Shown here piece after piece: positions 10,613 to 34,150 of a stretch of 64,000 bases of DNA. The DNA is from Acidobacteriaceae bacterium (GTDB lineage Bacteria; Acidobacteriota; Terriglobia; Terriglobales; Acidobacteriaceae), in the NCBI GenBank assembly GCA_003134995.1, contig PLDC01000019.1, positions 592,517 through 656,516 of the forward strand. The letters are read 5' to 3'. The translations under genes and the position numbers were made by a program. Below the pieces are notes generated by a model. The model searched no databases and was not told the DNA's origin. It saw nothing but the letters and a program-made list of their open reading frames with translations. The first letter of the stretch is position 1; each line of letters opens with the position of its first letter.

Positions 10613-11890
10613 ATGAACACTGCAACCCCATTTCCGTGGTCCGATTCGCCAGCCGGAGAGAGCCGGAGCACTGCCTTTCGCACTGCCTTCGAACACGCTC
10701 CCATCGCCGTAGCCCGCTTCAACGCGCAAGGCCTGATCGTCGAGATGAATGCAGCCTTCGAGCGGACGCTGGATCTCGGGTTGGCCAGCCAGCGGCGGTT
10801 GCGGCTCAGCGACATAGTTTGTCCGCAAGACCGCGTGAAAGCTGAGGCGCTGCTGCCTGACCTGCTCGATTCCCCGATTGATGATGCCCGGCGCGACGGC
10901 CTCCGCATGGAAGCTCAAGGCGCAAGCCATGGACAAGCCAGCTTCAAATGGACGGCGTGGCGCCAGCTCGACTTCAAAGGAGGGGACGATCATGCCTTGC
11001 TCATGCTGGAGCGAAAAGACGATGACCGGAGCAACGATGAGCAGAACATCGTCGGACTTCCCGCGCAGGAAAGTATGCTTCAAACCCAGAGATGGGAGGC
11101 CGTCGGCCGCCTGACAGGCGGCGTGGTCCACGACTTCAACAACCTGCTGACCGGCGTCATGCTGTATTGCGATCTGATGCTTTCGAGTCTCGACGCGCGC
11201 GACCGCCGCCGCCGCTACGCAGATGAGATTCGCTCCGCCATCGTGCAAGCCTCCGGCCTGGTGCGGCAGTTGCTCGTCTTTGCCCGGCCGCAGGTAACAG
11301 CGCCAAGCTTCTTGTGCCTGAACGAAGTTGCAGCGGCGATGGGCGATCTGCTGACTCGCTTGATCGGCGAAAACATCGCGCTGAATCTGCATCTCGATCC
11401 TGAATTGGGCTCCATCAAAATCGATCAGGCGCAAGCGCAGCAGATCATCCTGAATCTGGTTCTTAACGCGCGTGACGCACTCCCCAACGGCGGCCGCATT
11501 TCCATCGAGACCAGAAACTGCAAGTTCCAGCCCGTAGCCGGGATCGTGCCGAGCGCGCTCCCGGCCTTTCCCTGTGTCCTACTGGTGGTTGGCGATGACG
11601 GGTGCGGTATGAGTGCCGACACGCGCCAACGCCTGTTCGAGCCATTCTTCACTACCAAAAACGACGGCCAGGGCACCGGTTTGGGATTGACTACGGTCCG
11701 CAGCATCGTTACCACCAATCGCGGGCTCATCCACTTCGAAAGCGAACCTGGCCGCGGCACTCGCGTGATGATCCTGTTCCCGCGGGCATCTCAGGCTGCC
11801 GAAAGCGATCTTCTGGACCCGGCCACTCCAGATTCAGGGCCCGCATCCGCAACATCATTTCAAGAAGTCAAGAAGGAATCACACTTATGA
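10613..11890 (+). CDS. Soluble PAS sensor histidine kinase (NtrB-like)
   Basis: The start at 10613 (MNTATPFPW) follows TAGGA closely; upstream ATGs lack support. There are no membrane segments. An N-terminal PAS domain (about residues 20-135, FEHAPIAVARFNAQGLIVEM) is followed by HisKA with the HDFNN-type acceptor (GGVVHDFNNLLTGVMLYCD) and HATPase (LNLVLNARDALPNGG, GDDGCGMS, GQGTGLGLTTV). Its stop overlaps the next gene's start by 4 bp, so it is cotranslated with its NtrC-type partner. A cytosolic signal is likely. Confidence 0.9.
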   Translation: MNTATPFPWSDSPAGESRSTAFRTAFEHAPIAVARFNAQGLIVEMNAAFERTLDLGLASQRRLRLSDIVCPQDRVKAEALLPDLLDSPIDDARRDGLRMEAQGASHGQASFKWTAWRQLDFKGGDDHALLMLERKDDDRSNDEQNIVGLPAQESMLQTQRWEAVGRLTGGVVHDFNNLLTGVMLYCDLMLSSLDARDRRRRYADEIRSAIVQASGLVRQLLVFARPQVTAPSFLCLNEVAAAMGDLLTRLIGENIALNLHLDPELGSIKIDQAQAQQIILNLVLNARDALPNGGRISIETRNCKFQPVAGIVPSALPAFPCVLLVVGDDGCGMSADTRQRLFEPFFTTKNDGQGTGLGLTTVRSIVTTNRGLIHFESEPGRGTRVMILFPRASQAAESDLLDPATPDSGPASATSFQEVKKESHL

Positions 11891-13308
11891 CGTCAGCCGC
11901 ATTAAGCCACTCCATCGCCACTCCTCAGATCATGGCCGCGAATTTTCTCAACCTTCTCATCGTTGACGATGAACGCTCCATCCGCGACGCTTGCCGCGAA
12001 GTCGCACTCTCCCTGGGCTTCATGGCCCATGTCGCCGATTCCGCCGAACATGCTTACCGCATTCTGCAAACTCAAAGTATCGACGCCGTCTTACTTGATC
12101 TGCGCCTGCCCGGCGCAGGAGGCCTCGAGGCTCTCCACCATATCAAGGCTCAACGCCCCGAGGCTCTCGTGATCGTAGTGACGGGCTATGGCACCGTGCA
12201 ATCGGCGGTGCAGGCCATGAAGAATGGCGCTTACGAGTACGTGACCAAGCCTTTCAGCATCGACGAATTAAAGCTCCTGCTCGAACGCGTTTCGAATCAC
12301 CTCAAGCTGAAGAGCGAAAACCGCATGCTGCGCGAGAAGCTTAAATCCAAGCAGGGATATGGCGGCATAGTCGGTCGCGCCCCTGAGATGGAGAAGCTCT
12401 ACCGCATCATCGCCAAAGCCGCCAACAGCTCCCACCCTGTGCTGATTCTCGGCGAGAGCGGTACCGGTAAGGAAATGGTGGCGCGCTCCATTCATTACTC
12501 CGGGCCATTTCACGACAAGCCGTTCATCCCCGTCGATTGCGGCTCGCTCGTGCCTACGCTCATCGAAAGCGAGCTGTTCGGCTACGTCAAAGGCGCATTC
12601 ACTGGCGCCAATCAGGCCAAGGACGGATTGCTCGCCATCGCTGAGGGTGGAACCGTTTTTCTCGACGAAGTCGGTGAGTTGCCGGTAGACCTGCAGGCTA
12701 AACTTCTGCGGGCGATTCAGGAAAAGGAGATTCGCCCGGTCGGCAGCACTCGCCGCATTCCCATCAACGTCCGCATCCTCGCCGCGACCAACCGCTTGCT
12801 GGAGCAGGCCGTGACCGAAGGCACTTTCCGCCGCGACCTGTATTTTCGCTTGAATGTTCTCAGCCTGCGTATTCCGCCGTTGCGCGAGAGGCGCGAGGAT
12901 ATTCCGCTGTTGATCGCTCATTTCATGGAACGCTCATTGCGCTCCTCGGCACAAGAGAAAATTCTCACCGACGAAGCCGTCAAGGTCATGCTGGCCTATG
13001 ACTGGCCGGGCAACGTCCGCGAGCTGGAAAATTGCCTGGAGCGCACGTGCGCATTTACCAGCGGACCGCTGATCCATGTCCCTGATCTGCCACCAGCCAT
13101 CGCCGGTACACAGGTCGCAGCGCCCTCCAATGGCAACGGCCATGGGCACGCCTTGAACAAAATCGTTCCCATGGCAGAATTGGAGCGGCAGACCATTCTC
13201 AACGCCATCGCAGAACTCAATGGAGACAAGTTGCAGGCGGCGCGCTTGCTCGGCATAGGCAAGACAACTCTCTACCGCAAGTTGAAAGACTACGCCGCCC
13301 AGAGCTAG
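11887..13308 (+). CDS. NtrC-family sigma-54-dependent response regulator
   Basis: 473 residues from the ATG at 11887, inside an ATGA overlap with the kinase stop, with AAGGAA upstream. The receiver has LLIVDDERS and the phospho-site AVLLDLRLPGAGG. The AAA+ domain has Walker A GESGTGKE, the loop GAFTGA and Walker B GGTVFLDEVGE. The Fis-type helix-turn-helix at the C-terminus reads GDKLQAARLLGIGKTTLYRK. It forms a two-gene operon with the soluble kinase and is a paralogue of the regulator at 3333-4733. A palindromic repeat follows and may end transcription. Confidence 0.92.
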   Translation: MTSAALSHSIATPQIMAANFLNLLIVDDERSIRDACREVALSLGFMAHVADSAEHAYRILQTQSIDAVLLDLRLPGAGGLEALHHIKAQRPEALVIVVTGYGTVQSAVQAMKNGAYEYVTKPFSIDELKLLLERVSNHLKLKSENRMLREKLKSKQGYGGIVGRAPEMEKLYRIIAKAANSSHPVLILGESGTGKEMVARSIHYSGPFHDKPFIPVDCGSLVPTLIESELFGYVKGAFTGANQAKDGLLAIAEGGTVFLDEVGELPVDLQAKLLRAIQEKEIRPVGSTRRIPINVRILAATNRLLEQAVTEGTFRRDLYFRLNVLSLRIPPLRERREDIPLLIAHFMERSLRSSAQEKILTDEAVKVMLAYDWPGNVRELENCLERTCAFTSGPLIHVPDLPPAIAGTQVAAPSNGNGHGHALNKIVPMAELERQTILNAIAELNGDKLQAARLLGIGKTTLYRKLKDYAAQS

Positions 13309-13356: not shown

Positions 13357-13462
13357 TTGTCATCCCGAGCGAAGCGAGGGATCCTGGTTTCTGCGTTCAG
13401 CGCAATCACAGCCGACGCAGGCAAACACCAAGATCCCTCGCTCGCTCTGCTCGGGATGACAA
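13357..13462. repeat. REP-like palindromic repeat, copy A
   Basis: The left arm TTGTCATCCCGAGCGAAGCG plus AGGGATC and the right arm GATCCCTCGCTCGCTCTGC plus TCGGGATGACAA form a long hairpin of about 30-bp arms with a 45-nt centre. The same arms recur at 13843-13942 on the other side of the GIY-YIG gene. CATCCCGAGC-type repeats are known to be widespread in several phyla. Confidence 0.85.
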
Positions 13463-13490
13463 GGGCCGGAGGGAGCATGAGTGAAGATCG

Positions 13491-13820
13491 ATGAGCGAAG
13501 AGCGGCACTACTTCGTCTACATCATGGCCAACGCTTCGAAAAGGCTCTACACCGGCATGACCAACAGCATCCGACGGCGGGTTCGGGAGCACAAGCTGAA
13601 ACTGACGCCCGGCTTTGCAACGCAATACAACATCACCAGGTTAGTCTATTTCGAAACCTTCGAAGACGTACGCAACGCCATCGAACGCGAGAAGCAAATC
13701 AAGGCCTGGACTCGCGCGAAGCGGGTGGCATTGGTGGAATCGACAAATCCCAAGTGGGACGATTTGTCCCGCGAGTGGGATCAGCCGCAAACATTTCGAT
13801 TTGCGCCAAGAACTGCCTAA
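13491..13820 (+). CDS. Small GIY-YIG nuclease family protein
   Basis: 109 residues. The GIY-YIG signature is clear near the N-terminus: YFVYIMANASKRLYTGMTN (a Y-V-Y...Y-T-G variant) followed by Arg (SIRRRVREHK) and the downstream Glu/Lys segment AIEREKQIKAWTRAKRVALV. This single-domain UvrC-type class usually acts as, or derives from, a DNA endonuclease. The gene sits alone, 29 bp after one palindromic repeat and 23 bp before a second copy, suggesting the three form one unit that may be mobile. Confidence 0.85.
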   Translation: MSEERHYFVYIMANASKRLYTGMTNSIRRRVREHKLKLTPGFATQYNITRLVYFETFEDVRNAIEREKQIKAWTRAKRVALVESTNPKWDDLSREWDQPQTFRFAPRTA

Positions 13821-13842
13821 GGTCATCTTGTACTTTACTAGA

Positions 13843-13942
13843 TTGTCATCCCGAGCAAAGCGAGGGACCTTGGTTTTTGCCGGCAGTGGCAGACGATGAT
13901 CGTGCCGGCGAGAACCAATATCCCTCGCGTGGCTCGGGATGG
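13843..13942. repeat. REP-like palindromic repeat, copy B
   Basis: The left arm TTGTCATCCCGAGCAAAGCG plus AGGGACC and the right arm ending TCCCTCGCGTGGCTCGGGAT pair imperfectly; an inner GCCGGCA/TGCCGGC pair extends the hairpin. It is homologous to the repeat at 13357-13462. Confidence 0.85.
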
Positions 13943-14081
13943 CTAGCGGTAAGATGTCCCCTTATGAAACGAATGCCCCGTCCGCGCCGTTCCTCAGTGG
14001 GAACCGGTCCCTCACCGACTCCTTTAACCCGTGCCTTTTCAACGCGAGCACTCGTGGTGCTTTGCGTGCAATAGAAACCGC

Positions 14082-14567
14082 ATGATCCTACTCATCACCC
14101 CGTCAGCACGTGGCCAAGAGTGCGCGGTCACTCTGAAAGAAGCGATCGGCGAGGAAACCCACTGGGCAGAAAAACTTTCGCAAGCCATTGCCCGGCTCCG
14201 CGAACAGCCCTATTCCGCCGTCGTTCTAGACCAATTCCTTTTGGAAAACGAGCCCGCGGAAAGCGACCAGATGCTTGAACATCTGGGCACGGCTTTTCCC
14301 GTCTATCTCAACTTCGCCGTCAGCGGCATGGAGCGCCTGTTGCGCGACGTCCGCTCCGCGCTTCACCGCCGCAAGCGCGAGGAAATCCAGGCTCGCCGTT
14401 CGGTCGAGCAACAAATTCGCAGCGAGGTGTGCGAGTCGCTCACCGTCATGCTGCTCTCCTGCGAATTAGCCATGGCCGTGCCCGGCATCCCCACCCCGGC
14501 AGCAGAAAAAATCCGCATGATCGACAATCTCGCCCGCGACATGCGCCTCAGGCTGAATGTGAACTGA
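14082..14567 (+). CDS. Receiver-like (degenerate response-regulator) protein
   Basis: 161 residues from the ATG at 14082 (MILLITPSARGQECAVTLKEA). The fold resembles a CheY receiver: a start strand, a conserved Asp in AVVLDQFLLENEP, and later helices, but the acidic pair after the first strand is missing. The C-terminal third (about residues 110-161) is helical and resembles a dimerisation segment. Its ending AEKIRMIDNLARDMR recurs in a diverged fragment at 16805-16890. No kinase or output domain is attached; possibly a phosphorelay or regulatory adaptor. Confidence 0.65.
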   Translation: MILLITPSARGQECAVTLKEAIGEETHWAEKLSQAIARLREQPYSAVVLDQFLLENEPAESDQMLEHLGTAFPVYLNFAVSGMERLLRDVRSALHRRKREEIQARRSVEQQIRSEVCESLTVMLLSCELAMAVPGIPTPAAEKIRMIDNLARDMRLRLNVN

Positions 14568-34003: not shown

Positions 34004-34147
34004 GCGGGTAAGCGGGCTTCGGGCGTCGGCTATCGGGCTTCGGGTGTCCGATACCGCGCCTCGGTAAAATGCGAGGCTCTCGCTTCTGGATTCGCTGAAG
34101 CCCGAAAGCCGAAGCCCGGAAGCCCGAAGCCGGAAGCCCGAAGCCCG
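34004..34147. repeat. Inverted repeat of GGGCTTCGGG words
   Basis: Left arm (34004-34044) carries GGGCTTCGGG repeats. The right arm (34096-34147) carries GAAGCCCGAAGCC repeats on the same strand, able to fold back onto the left arm. The LON-domain gene ends at its right border. Confidence 0.8.
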
Positions 34148-34150
34148 CAC

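Follow-up and report, generated by a model that had tools for sequence, protein, structure and literature searches.

REP palindromes are among the most common repeats of bacteria, and they have been split into two superfamilies, GTAG and CGTC (Di Nocera, De Gregorio, Rocco 2013; PMC3733652). The GTAG REPs have a candidate enzyme, the RAYT (TnpA-REP) tyrosine transposase, and the REPtrons that combine the two are characterized by tagged hairpins, inverted doublets (REPINs), an enzyme gene bracketed by its own repeats, and many doublets without a gene (PMC3733652, PMC3116915). The CGTC REPs carry the tag CGTC, often TGTC or CCTC, have AT-starting stems of 8-9 bp with loops of 4-5, and occur mostly as HH dimers; Novosphingobium aromaticivorans, Azospirillum lipoferum and Sinorhizobium meliloti were named as carriers (PMC3733652). 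These REPs "apparently lack a dedicated transposase", and two suggestions were made for this, an early loss of their REPtrons or mobilization by other transposases (PMC3733652).

The closest described relatives of the protein studied here are small GIY-YIG proteins. The UPF0213/COG2827 proteins (E. coli YhbQ, B. subtilis YazA; PDB 1zg2, 1ywl) are related to it in sequence and fold and are of similar size; YhbQ and YazA are regarded as host genes. Caulobacter crescentus has three small COG2827 genes, one of them with an SOS box, for which a role in repair was proposed (PMC1839093). Slx1 is likewise a GIY-YIG protein, a branched-DNA nuclease according to PDB entry titles, and differs in being eukaryotic, in having a zinc-finger domain and in acting with a partner, Slx4 (PMC7017083). 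Free-standing GIY-YIG homing genes are known in phages as small selfish genes that spread by cutting gene-less sites. Their targets are specific genes, and to our knowledge no repeat family brackets them.

In the window, meaning the whole stretch of 64,000 nucleotides of Acidobacteriaceae DNA that was analysed, a small stand-alone GIY-YIG nuclease gene (13491..13820, + strand, 109 aa) is located between two palindromic elements without assigned strand, one upstream at 13357..13462 and one downstream at 13844..13943. The gaps between gene and elements are 28 bp (upstream) and 23 bp (downstream). Each element is a REPIN-like doublet formed by two inverted half-sites of one hairpin. The first half-site of the upstream element (13358..13383, + strand) reads TGTC-ATCCC-GA-GC-GAA-GC-GA-GGGAT-C, with a TGTC tag, an ATCCC..GGGAT hairpin and a GCGAAGC core; a 48-nt spacer separates it from its inverted partner (13432..13461, - strand), which has the TGTC tag and a core longer by 4 nt. 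The downstream element has one half-site at 13844..13869 (+ strand; TGTC tag, GCAAAGC core) and an inverted partner at 13918..13943 (- strand) with an altered tag, GCC being in place of GTC. Both elements are long imperfect palindromes with arms of 25 and 39 nt and complementarity of 88% and 85%, and as single-stranded DNA they fold far better than shuffled sequences, with z values of -8.5 (upstream) and -8.9 (downstream). The flanking genes at 11602..13308 (+ strand) and 14031..14567 (+ strand) served as synteny anchors. The left one, which we take to encode a sigma-54-type response regulator, is given as the longest ORF, and its true start is probably further in.

The core CATCCCGAGCGAAGCGAGGGA has four matches in the window when up to 3 mismatches are allowed, all inside the two elements, with a chance expectation of 0.00. 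The genome of the window (5.62 Mb) has 101 half-sites, 45 forward and 56 reverse, compared to 0 for a reversed control pattern; many of them form +/- pairs about 72 bp apart, as seen from the listing without counting. With the only two family elements of the window flanking a single gene, and with 101 half-sites in 5.62 Mb, the arrangement is far from chance. Only one of the four GIY-YIG domain matches in this genome, that of the window, is a small stand-alone gene, the other three being in open frames of 709, 307 and 287 aa. The sequence-only reading had claimed a 109-residue GIY-YIG gene lying 29 bp and 23 bp from homologous hairpin repeats. The placement between repeats held, as the two elements are related doublets and the only members of the family in the window; the distances held approximately, the first being 28 bp by measurement.

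Other inverted repeats unrelated to the REPs are also carried by the window, and a cluster of GC-rich inverted repeats of the GCCGAAGCCCGAAGC type at 34012-34148 has no relation to them. Elsewhere in the same genome (C19:32290-35313), two lone REP doublets about 1 kb apart bracket a housekeeping gene, which we take to be sucD. Two-sided flanking without a nuclease therefore does happen.

The 109-aa protein matches the Pfam GIY-YIG domain with E=1.3e-14 (54.7 bits against a cut-off of 22.6). No other domain was found in it by Pfam, and all NCBIfam matches were far below cut-off. Its Y10, Y20, R30, E67 and N86 are all in place, and we take them to equate to the catalytic residues of UvrC. In an alignment of 63 homologues (62 of the 76 intact ones from the database scan described below, plus the window protein), four of these residues, Y10, R30, E67 and N86, do not vary, and Y20 reaches a conservation of at least 90%. 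This conservation shows that the active site is retained while the genes themselves come and go. The structure model of the window protein has a mean pLDDT of 89.7. Foldseek comparison to the PDB yields UPF0213 BH0048 as the best match (E 1.2e-4), followed by Slx1-Slx4 (E 0.012 and weaker). The two UPF0213 structures, 1zg2 and 1ywl, were also recovered when PDB sequences were searched with a profile. With GIY-YIG as the only domain by Pfam and GIY-YIG proteins at the head of the fold-match list, the protein is not an HUH Y1 tyrosine transposase.

The repeats beside the gene were compared to the description of the CGTC superfamily. A TGTC start is present in 3/4 window half-sites, the fourth being the one with GCC for GTC, so the tag is as described; the stem begins with AT at the 5' side in 4/4 half-sites and ends with AT at the 3' side in 3/4; and both elements are inverted doublets. 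In the window type, a stem of 5 bp is followed by a 2-nt mismatch, a further 2 bp and a loop of 3 nt, and the tail differs from CCA. The 8-9 bp stem with a loop of 4-5 and a CCA tail is present in Rhizobium, Shinella and Azospirillum. The two-part stem, together with a GNA triloop or longer cores, is shared by many of the repeats seen here in Acidobacteriota and others, and goes beyond the published description (PMC3733652).

Plasmids provided a further set of loci. Nuclease homologues were found in 34 plasmid records, of which 12 regions were examined, 9 of them alphaproteobacterial; 8 of these 9 were widened to 40 kb after their near flanks had been read, and the sample is biased accordingly. 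Counting hairpins with a CGTC, TGTC or CCTC tag, a perfect stem of at least 7 and a loop of 3-9, we found 17 in the 4000 bp beside the gene and 17 in the remaining 303,783 bp, a 76-fold difference. Tagged REPs are present on at least one side at 7/8 of these loci and on both sides at 6/8; R. tumorigenes has them on one side only, and the one miss is Sphingomonas paeninsulae, with no tagged REP beside its nuclease gene. The alphaproteobacterial sites start with CGTC, TGTC or CCTC, although it should be mentioned that the tag was part of the search, and the stems in Novosphingobium and Sphingobium start with GC and AC rather than AT. All three named carriers of CGTC REPs, N. aromaticivorans, A. 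lipoferum and S. meliloti, have tagged REPs beside nuclease genes. We class the repeats in the CGTC/TGTC superfamily, of which the window type would be a structural variant, and put the nuclease forward as the candidate dedicated enzyme of this superfamily.

Homologues of the nuclease are present in 127/200 genomes of the bacterial family, with up to 9 copies each, and in 34/45 genomes of the genus, where some are fragments or have in-frame stops. Flanking was evaluated in 40 other genomes of the family, each contributing one region of at most 20 kb, and at loci from a scan of 84,980 species genomes in which the best 80 of 556 confirmed loci were kept. Both samples are biased, the family loci having been taken as the best-scoring listed matches, one per genome, away from contig starts. 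After removal of 4 duplicates (scan loci L202, L222, L236 and L247) and 4 loci with a flank <100 bp, these 120 loci gave 112 distinct ones. A REP-like palindrome is found within 250 bp of the gene on at least one side in 97/112 loci and on both sides in 72/112. The corresponding values are 90/993 and 8/993 for control ORFs of the same loci, and 22/315 and 1/315 for small control ORFs of 75-160 aa. The pattern extends to scan loci without an Acidobacteriota label (37/47 on at least one side, 25/47 on both, with controls of 27/260 and 3/260), and 18/23 named phyla have a locus flanked on at least one side, 16/23 on both. The other 5/23 named phyla, represented by one locus each, showed no flanking site. 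At 15/112 loci no site was detected by the regular expression within 250 bp; three family loci that it missed (L092, L095, L104) have variant palindromes on both sides, as judged by eye.

Site density gives the same picture. Compared between the vicinity of the gene and distances above 1 kb, it is 5.00/kb versus 0.081/kb in the family set, 4.81/kb versus 0.112/kb in the genus loci and 4.44/kb versus 0.082/kb in the scan set, i.e., ratios of 43 to 62 times. The nearest REPs at the 72 two-sided loci are oriented (+,-) in 46 cases, (+,+) in 14, (-,-) in 8 and (-,+) in 4. Because the looser regular expression was written after the loci had been seen, a test independent of any motif is important. 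In this test, the upstream 250 bp were aligned locally to the reverse complement of the downstream 250 bp, with 5/80 scan loci left out for short flanks. An inverted-repeat score of at least 16 was reached by 28/40 family loci and 40/75 scan loci compared to 7/852 control ORFs. Direct repeats are also frequent (58/115 loci with a score of at least 16, for which there is no control), as expected when each side can carry a whole doublet. A stricter hairpin scan, with 6/80 scan loci left out for short flanks, found sites on at least one side at 53/74 scan loci and on both sides at 36 (controls 25/353 and 5/353). The same scan was positive on at least one side at only 13/40 family loci, and on both at 7 (controls 20/466 and 2/466), as their stems or spacings mostly fall outside its pattern. 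It is noted that the 4 duplicates are still included in the motif-free, strict-hairpin and site-density analyses, in the inspection by eye of the missed loci, in the comparison that covered sucD, and in the analyses of left-right matching and triplet covariation presented below. The comparison of flanking with the genomic background, which had been named beforehand as a check, thus came out in favor of the association by the REP-like sites, and the motif-free test agrees. The bracketing of small GIY-YIG genes by REPs is real and general across many phyla.

Genomes with several copies allow the two sides of each gene to be compared. G123 has 8 paralogues and G082 has 7, of which 7 and 6, respectively, are usable in having sites on both sides by the looser regular expression. 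The left-right REP similarity in G123 is 0.840 within the same locus versus 0.339 between loci, with 2/5040 permutations as high; in G082 it is 0.836 versus 0.303, with 1/720 permutations as high. The REP subfamilies differ mostly from paralogue to paralogue in both genomes. Two G123 copies, L144 and L145, have a common subfamily, and the other G123 copies diverge to varying degrees. Of the 7 sites of this common subfamily in G123, 4 bracket the two nuclease genes; G082 has 6 sites of it, with 2 of them around one gene. The matching is shown for these two genomes, and it is the strongest argument against a mere common preference of gene and repeats for intergenic DNA.

The stems of the REPs vary and yet keep their pairing. 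Fixed anchors that include the 5' AT and do not require pairing picked out 288 sites at 106/120 loci. Complementary variable triplets in the stem were found at 234 of these sites, whereas 1000 shuffles gave a mean of 55.4 and a maximum of 72. The sequences are related, so this covariation is only indicative in number. Short-type sites were collected from every fetched locus, whether or not they lie next to the gene. Of the 161 distinct ones, 154 have a complementary inner 2-bp stem and 133 a GNA triloop; the flanking GA pairs are fixed by the pattern. GCGAAGC, set within a GA/GA mismatch, is the most common REP core in the fetched loci. It belongs to the GC-GNA-GC (GCGNAGC) type of DNA mini-hairpins, which are extraordinarily stable, and standard DNA energies give no credit for this stability. 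Under standard DNA parameters, minimal REPs of three types folded no better than shuffled sequences (z of -0.31, 0.45 and -0.54); a Rhizobium REP did fold better (z -4.4), as do the whole window elements. The hairpin assignment therefore rests on covariation and not on energy. As for a known RNA family, Rfam gave 9 matches, all to miRNA-precursor models and every one below the gathering score, and this possibility was rejected.

Across the 200 family genomes, the number of half-sites is higher where the gene is present, with a median of 21 (n=127) versus 6 (n=73) without it (Mann-Whitney p 3e-6; Spearman 0.33, a moderate correlation). It should be mentioned that relatives are not independent, so that p is indicative, that some genomes are incomplete, and that the half-site pattern covers only part of the REP variety. 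None of this pattern is found in 7/127 genomes with the gene, and 13/73 genomes without a detected gene have at least 30 half-sites. The suggestion of the sequence-only reading that the nuclease may spread or maintain the repeats is supported, tempered by these 13 genomes, and the causal step itself is not shown.

The presence of the gene is polymorphic between relatives. The left neighbor of the window gene was strongly matched in 36 congeners, and all 29 congener loci that were fetched (L106-L134) keep both neighbors without the nuclease. At this spot there is a lone doublet and no gene in G206, one half-site in G236 and a degenerate trace in G220; in the window itself, divergence has made the boundaries of this locus indistinct. 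The genus homologues nearest to that of the window (78-88% identical, 7 genomes) sit at other sites. A second position was followed through coaD, which was matched in 39 genomes with 30 loci fetched. The nuclease lies just upstream of coaD in 4/30 (G205, G201, G209 and G218), with REPs beside it, and recA was detected upstream in two of them. In 18 other congeners recA and coaD are within about 0.7 kb of each other with no nuclease between. The recA-coaD site without the gene has a lone doublet in G082, single clear half-sites in G202 and G214, and a tiny fused palindrome, seen by eye, in G143; most other gene-less congeners show no repeat at this site. The coaD site of the window's own genome is not comparable since no recA was detected beside it.

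Similar states are found in other bacteria. Sphingobium TomMM7A has a REP-gene-REP arrangement between fnrL and a regulator, while at the fnrL spot TomTYG64 and TomTYG74 have no gene and one fused palindrome, and TomTYG72 has neither. Comparison of the loci (L301-L303 with L273) indicates that the fused palindrome corresponds to the outer halves of the two REPs, and it may resemble either an excision scar or an intact pre-insertion site. A unit is located between sufB and sufC in Azospirillum lipoferum 4B and is absent from this position in A. oryzae, A. ramasamyi and strain B510. The check for empty sites is thus also in favor, with 29/29 congeners at the window locus, 18 at recA-coaD, and the Azospirillum and Sphingobium relatives. 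The gene-less and gene-bearing states fit both insertion into a lone REP and deletion between REPs, and the direction is unresolved. No target-site duplication was seen, and exact ends were not established, at the compared sites. These comparisons show a gene that is polymorphic between relatives, multi-copy, patchy and sometimes broken. A protein tree by phylum was too poorly resolved (8/74 inner branches starred) to prove transfer between phyla.

The sufB-sufC interval of Shinella sp. PSBB067 is also occupied, by a nuclease other than that of A. lipoferum 4B and flanked by inverted REPs of its own. In two orders of alphaproteobacteria, this intergenic spot is taken by two distinct nuclease units whose REPs differ.

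Compared to the known systems, the nuclease units resemble REPtrons in their tagged hairpins and inverted doublets and in having an enzyme gene bracketed by its own repeats, alongside many doublets without a gene. Unlike REPtrons, they use a GIY-YIG enzyme unrelated to the HUH Y1 transposases, and their repeats belong to the CGTC/TGTC rather than the GTAG superfamily. The unit would work like a REPtron and yet is none, as its enzyme is not a RAYT. With the CGTC superfamily the nuclease-flanking repeats share the CGTC/TGTC/CCTC tag, the AT-starting stem and the inverted doublets; no dedicated enzyme for these REPs was reported in PMC3733652, and the nuclease is here the candidate. The analogy to REPs and RAYT transposases that had been drawn from the window letters has held as a close one, given the fit of the repeats to a superfamily without a known enzyme in 2013. 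With the free-standing homing genes the unit shares a small nuclease gene and the existence of gene-less sites, here the lone REP, cutting of which is inferred. We found no earlier link between GIY-YIG proteins and REPs in the part of the open-access literature that was screened; most subscription papers and preprints were outside this search. In a REP survey of 2025 (PMC12306157), CGTC occurs a single time, within the reference list, and words starting with "nuclease" or "GIY" are absent.

We propose that a widespread selfish unit, about 0.5 kb long, is represented in the window by one copy. It would consist of REP hairpins, a small GIY-YIG gene and REP hairpins, and in it the nuclease would be to CGTC/TGTC REPs what the RAYT transposases are to GTAG REPs. 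It is likely that the nuclease is a dedicated partner enzyme spreading or maintaining these REPs, though evidence for cutting, binding or movement is lacking at both the biochemical and the population level. The enzyme may recognize its cognate REP as a hairpin, either in the single strand at a replication fork or in an extruded cruciform, and would nick close to the tag. Repair from a REP-gene-REP copy would then carry the unit into a lone REP site in a homing-like step; alternatively, repair may duplicate short REP doublets as non-autonomous passengers. Recombination between the flanking REPs would delete the gene and leave a lone or fused REP. Hairpin nicking, homing-like copying and the mobilization of gene-less doublets are all inferred, and we would not yet bet on the detailed nick-and-homing route. 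A bolder reading, for and against which we see the evidence as balanced, is that of a class of minimal bacterial mobile elements of about 0.5 kb whose sole protein is a structure-selective GIY-YIG nuclease. The CGTC/TGTC REPs would be the ends of this element and its gene-less derivatives, with an origin independent of RAYT; it would be spread over at least 16 phyla, counted as those with a two-sided locus, and would have built one of the two great REP superfamilies, each nuclease lineage reading its own hairpin.

A different view is that the REPs serve only as a landing pad. They would be spread by something else. The nuclease gene would be a free-standing homing gene merely using REPs as places to settle, or general recombination between repeat copies would move it; its enzyme could cut REPs for the insertion of its own gene without serving the repeats. 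The lone REPs without a gene at orthologous sites (G206; G082 and G202 at recA-coaD; TomTYG64 and TomTYG74) are in line with this view, as are the 13/73 genomes with at least 30 half-sites and no detected gene, and free-standing GIY-YIG homing genes do exist in phages. However, where one genome has several paralogues, the REPs on the two sides of a copy match, and they mostly change from one paralogue to the next; one of these subfamilies has few other sites in its genome. A hitchhiker would be expected mostly in the commonest REPs. With a single inverted REP on each side, moreover, the gene replaces the spacer of a REP doublet. We regard the landing pad as unlikely.

Even less probable is a host repair enzyme, a structure nuclease serving the cell by removing REP hairpins from the replication fork, with the adjacency explained by recombination at hairpin-rich spots or by REPs regulating the expression of the nuclease. 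The nearest folds, UPF0213 and Slx1, and the three COG2827 genes of C. crescentus, one of them with an SOS box, and their proposed repair role (PMC1839093) speak for it. Against it are the up to 9 copies per genome and the lack of a detected gene in 73/200 family genomes, the fragments and in-frame stops among the genus copies, and the absence of the gene from the same site in relatives. Copy number, gaps, broken copies and absences together make the pattern of a mobile gene and not of a housekeeping one. It remains that REPs could gather in any intergenic space, for example at terminators, and that small mobile genes could do the same. The 8/993 control ORFs flanked on both sides, and sucD bracketed by lone doublets, show that such coincidences occur. 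Two-sided flanking at 72/112 loci versus 1/315 for ORFs of 75-160 aa in the same loci, the match of the two sides within genomes, and the 43- to 62-fold excess in site density next to the gene over distances above 1 kb all but exclude this explanation; plain chance as the cause of the flanking is ruled out by the control ORFs.

Returning to the partner-enzyme reading, the association makes the nuclease the strongest candidate to date for the partner enzyme that a large REP family has been missing. It is a small, easily expressed candidate enzyme for the CGTC REPs, and since its cognate DNA can be read from its own flanks, the question becomes testable at the bench. If true, this reading would account for the scattered distribution and the multiple copies of small "UvrC-like" GIY-YIG genes, and it advises caution against annotating small GIY-YIG genes as repair genes by default.

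Several loci show further arrangements of gene and repeats. In two family genomes (L087 in G161 and L104 in G018) a tandem pair of nuclease genes is found about 0.3 kb apart. A regular REP array accompanies the nuclease gene on plasmids of Photobacterium sp. GJ3 (L275) and Rhizobium sp. CIAT894 (L266) and at L085, with the appearance of a REP-spacer unit possibly amplified beside the gene. On plasmid p1 of Planktothrix agardhii, a REP-bracketed nuclease 62% identical to that of the window is located between an MmeI-type restriction gene and drmA (DISARM).
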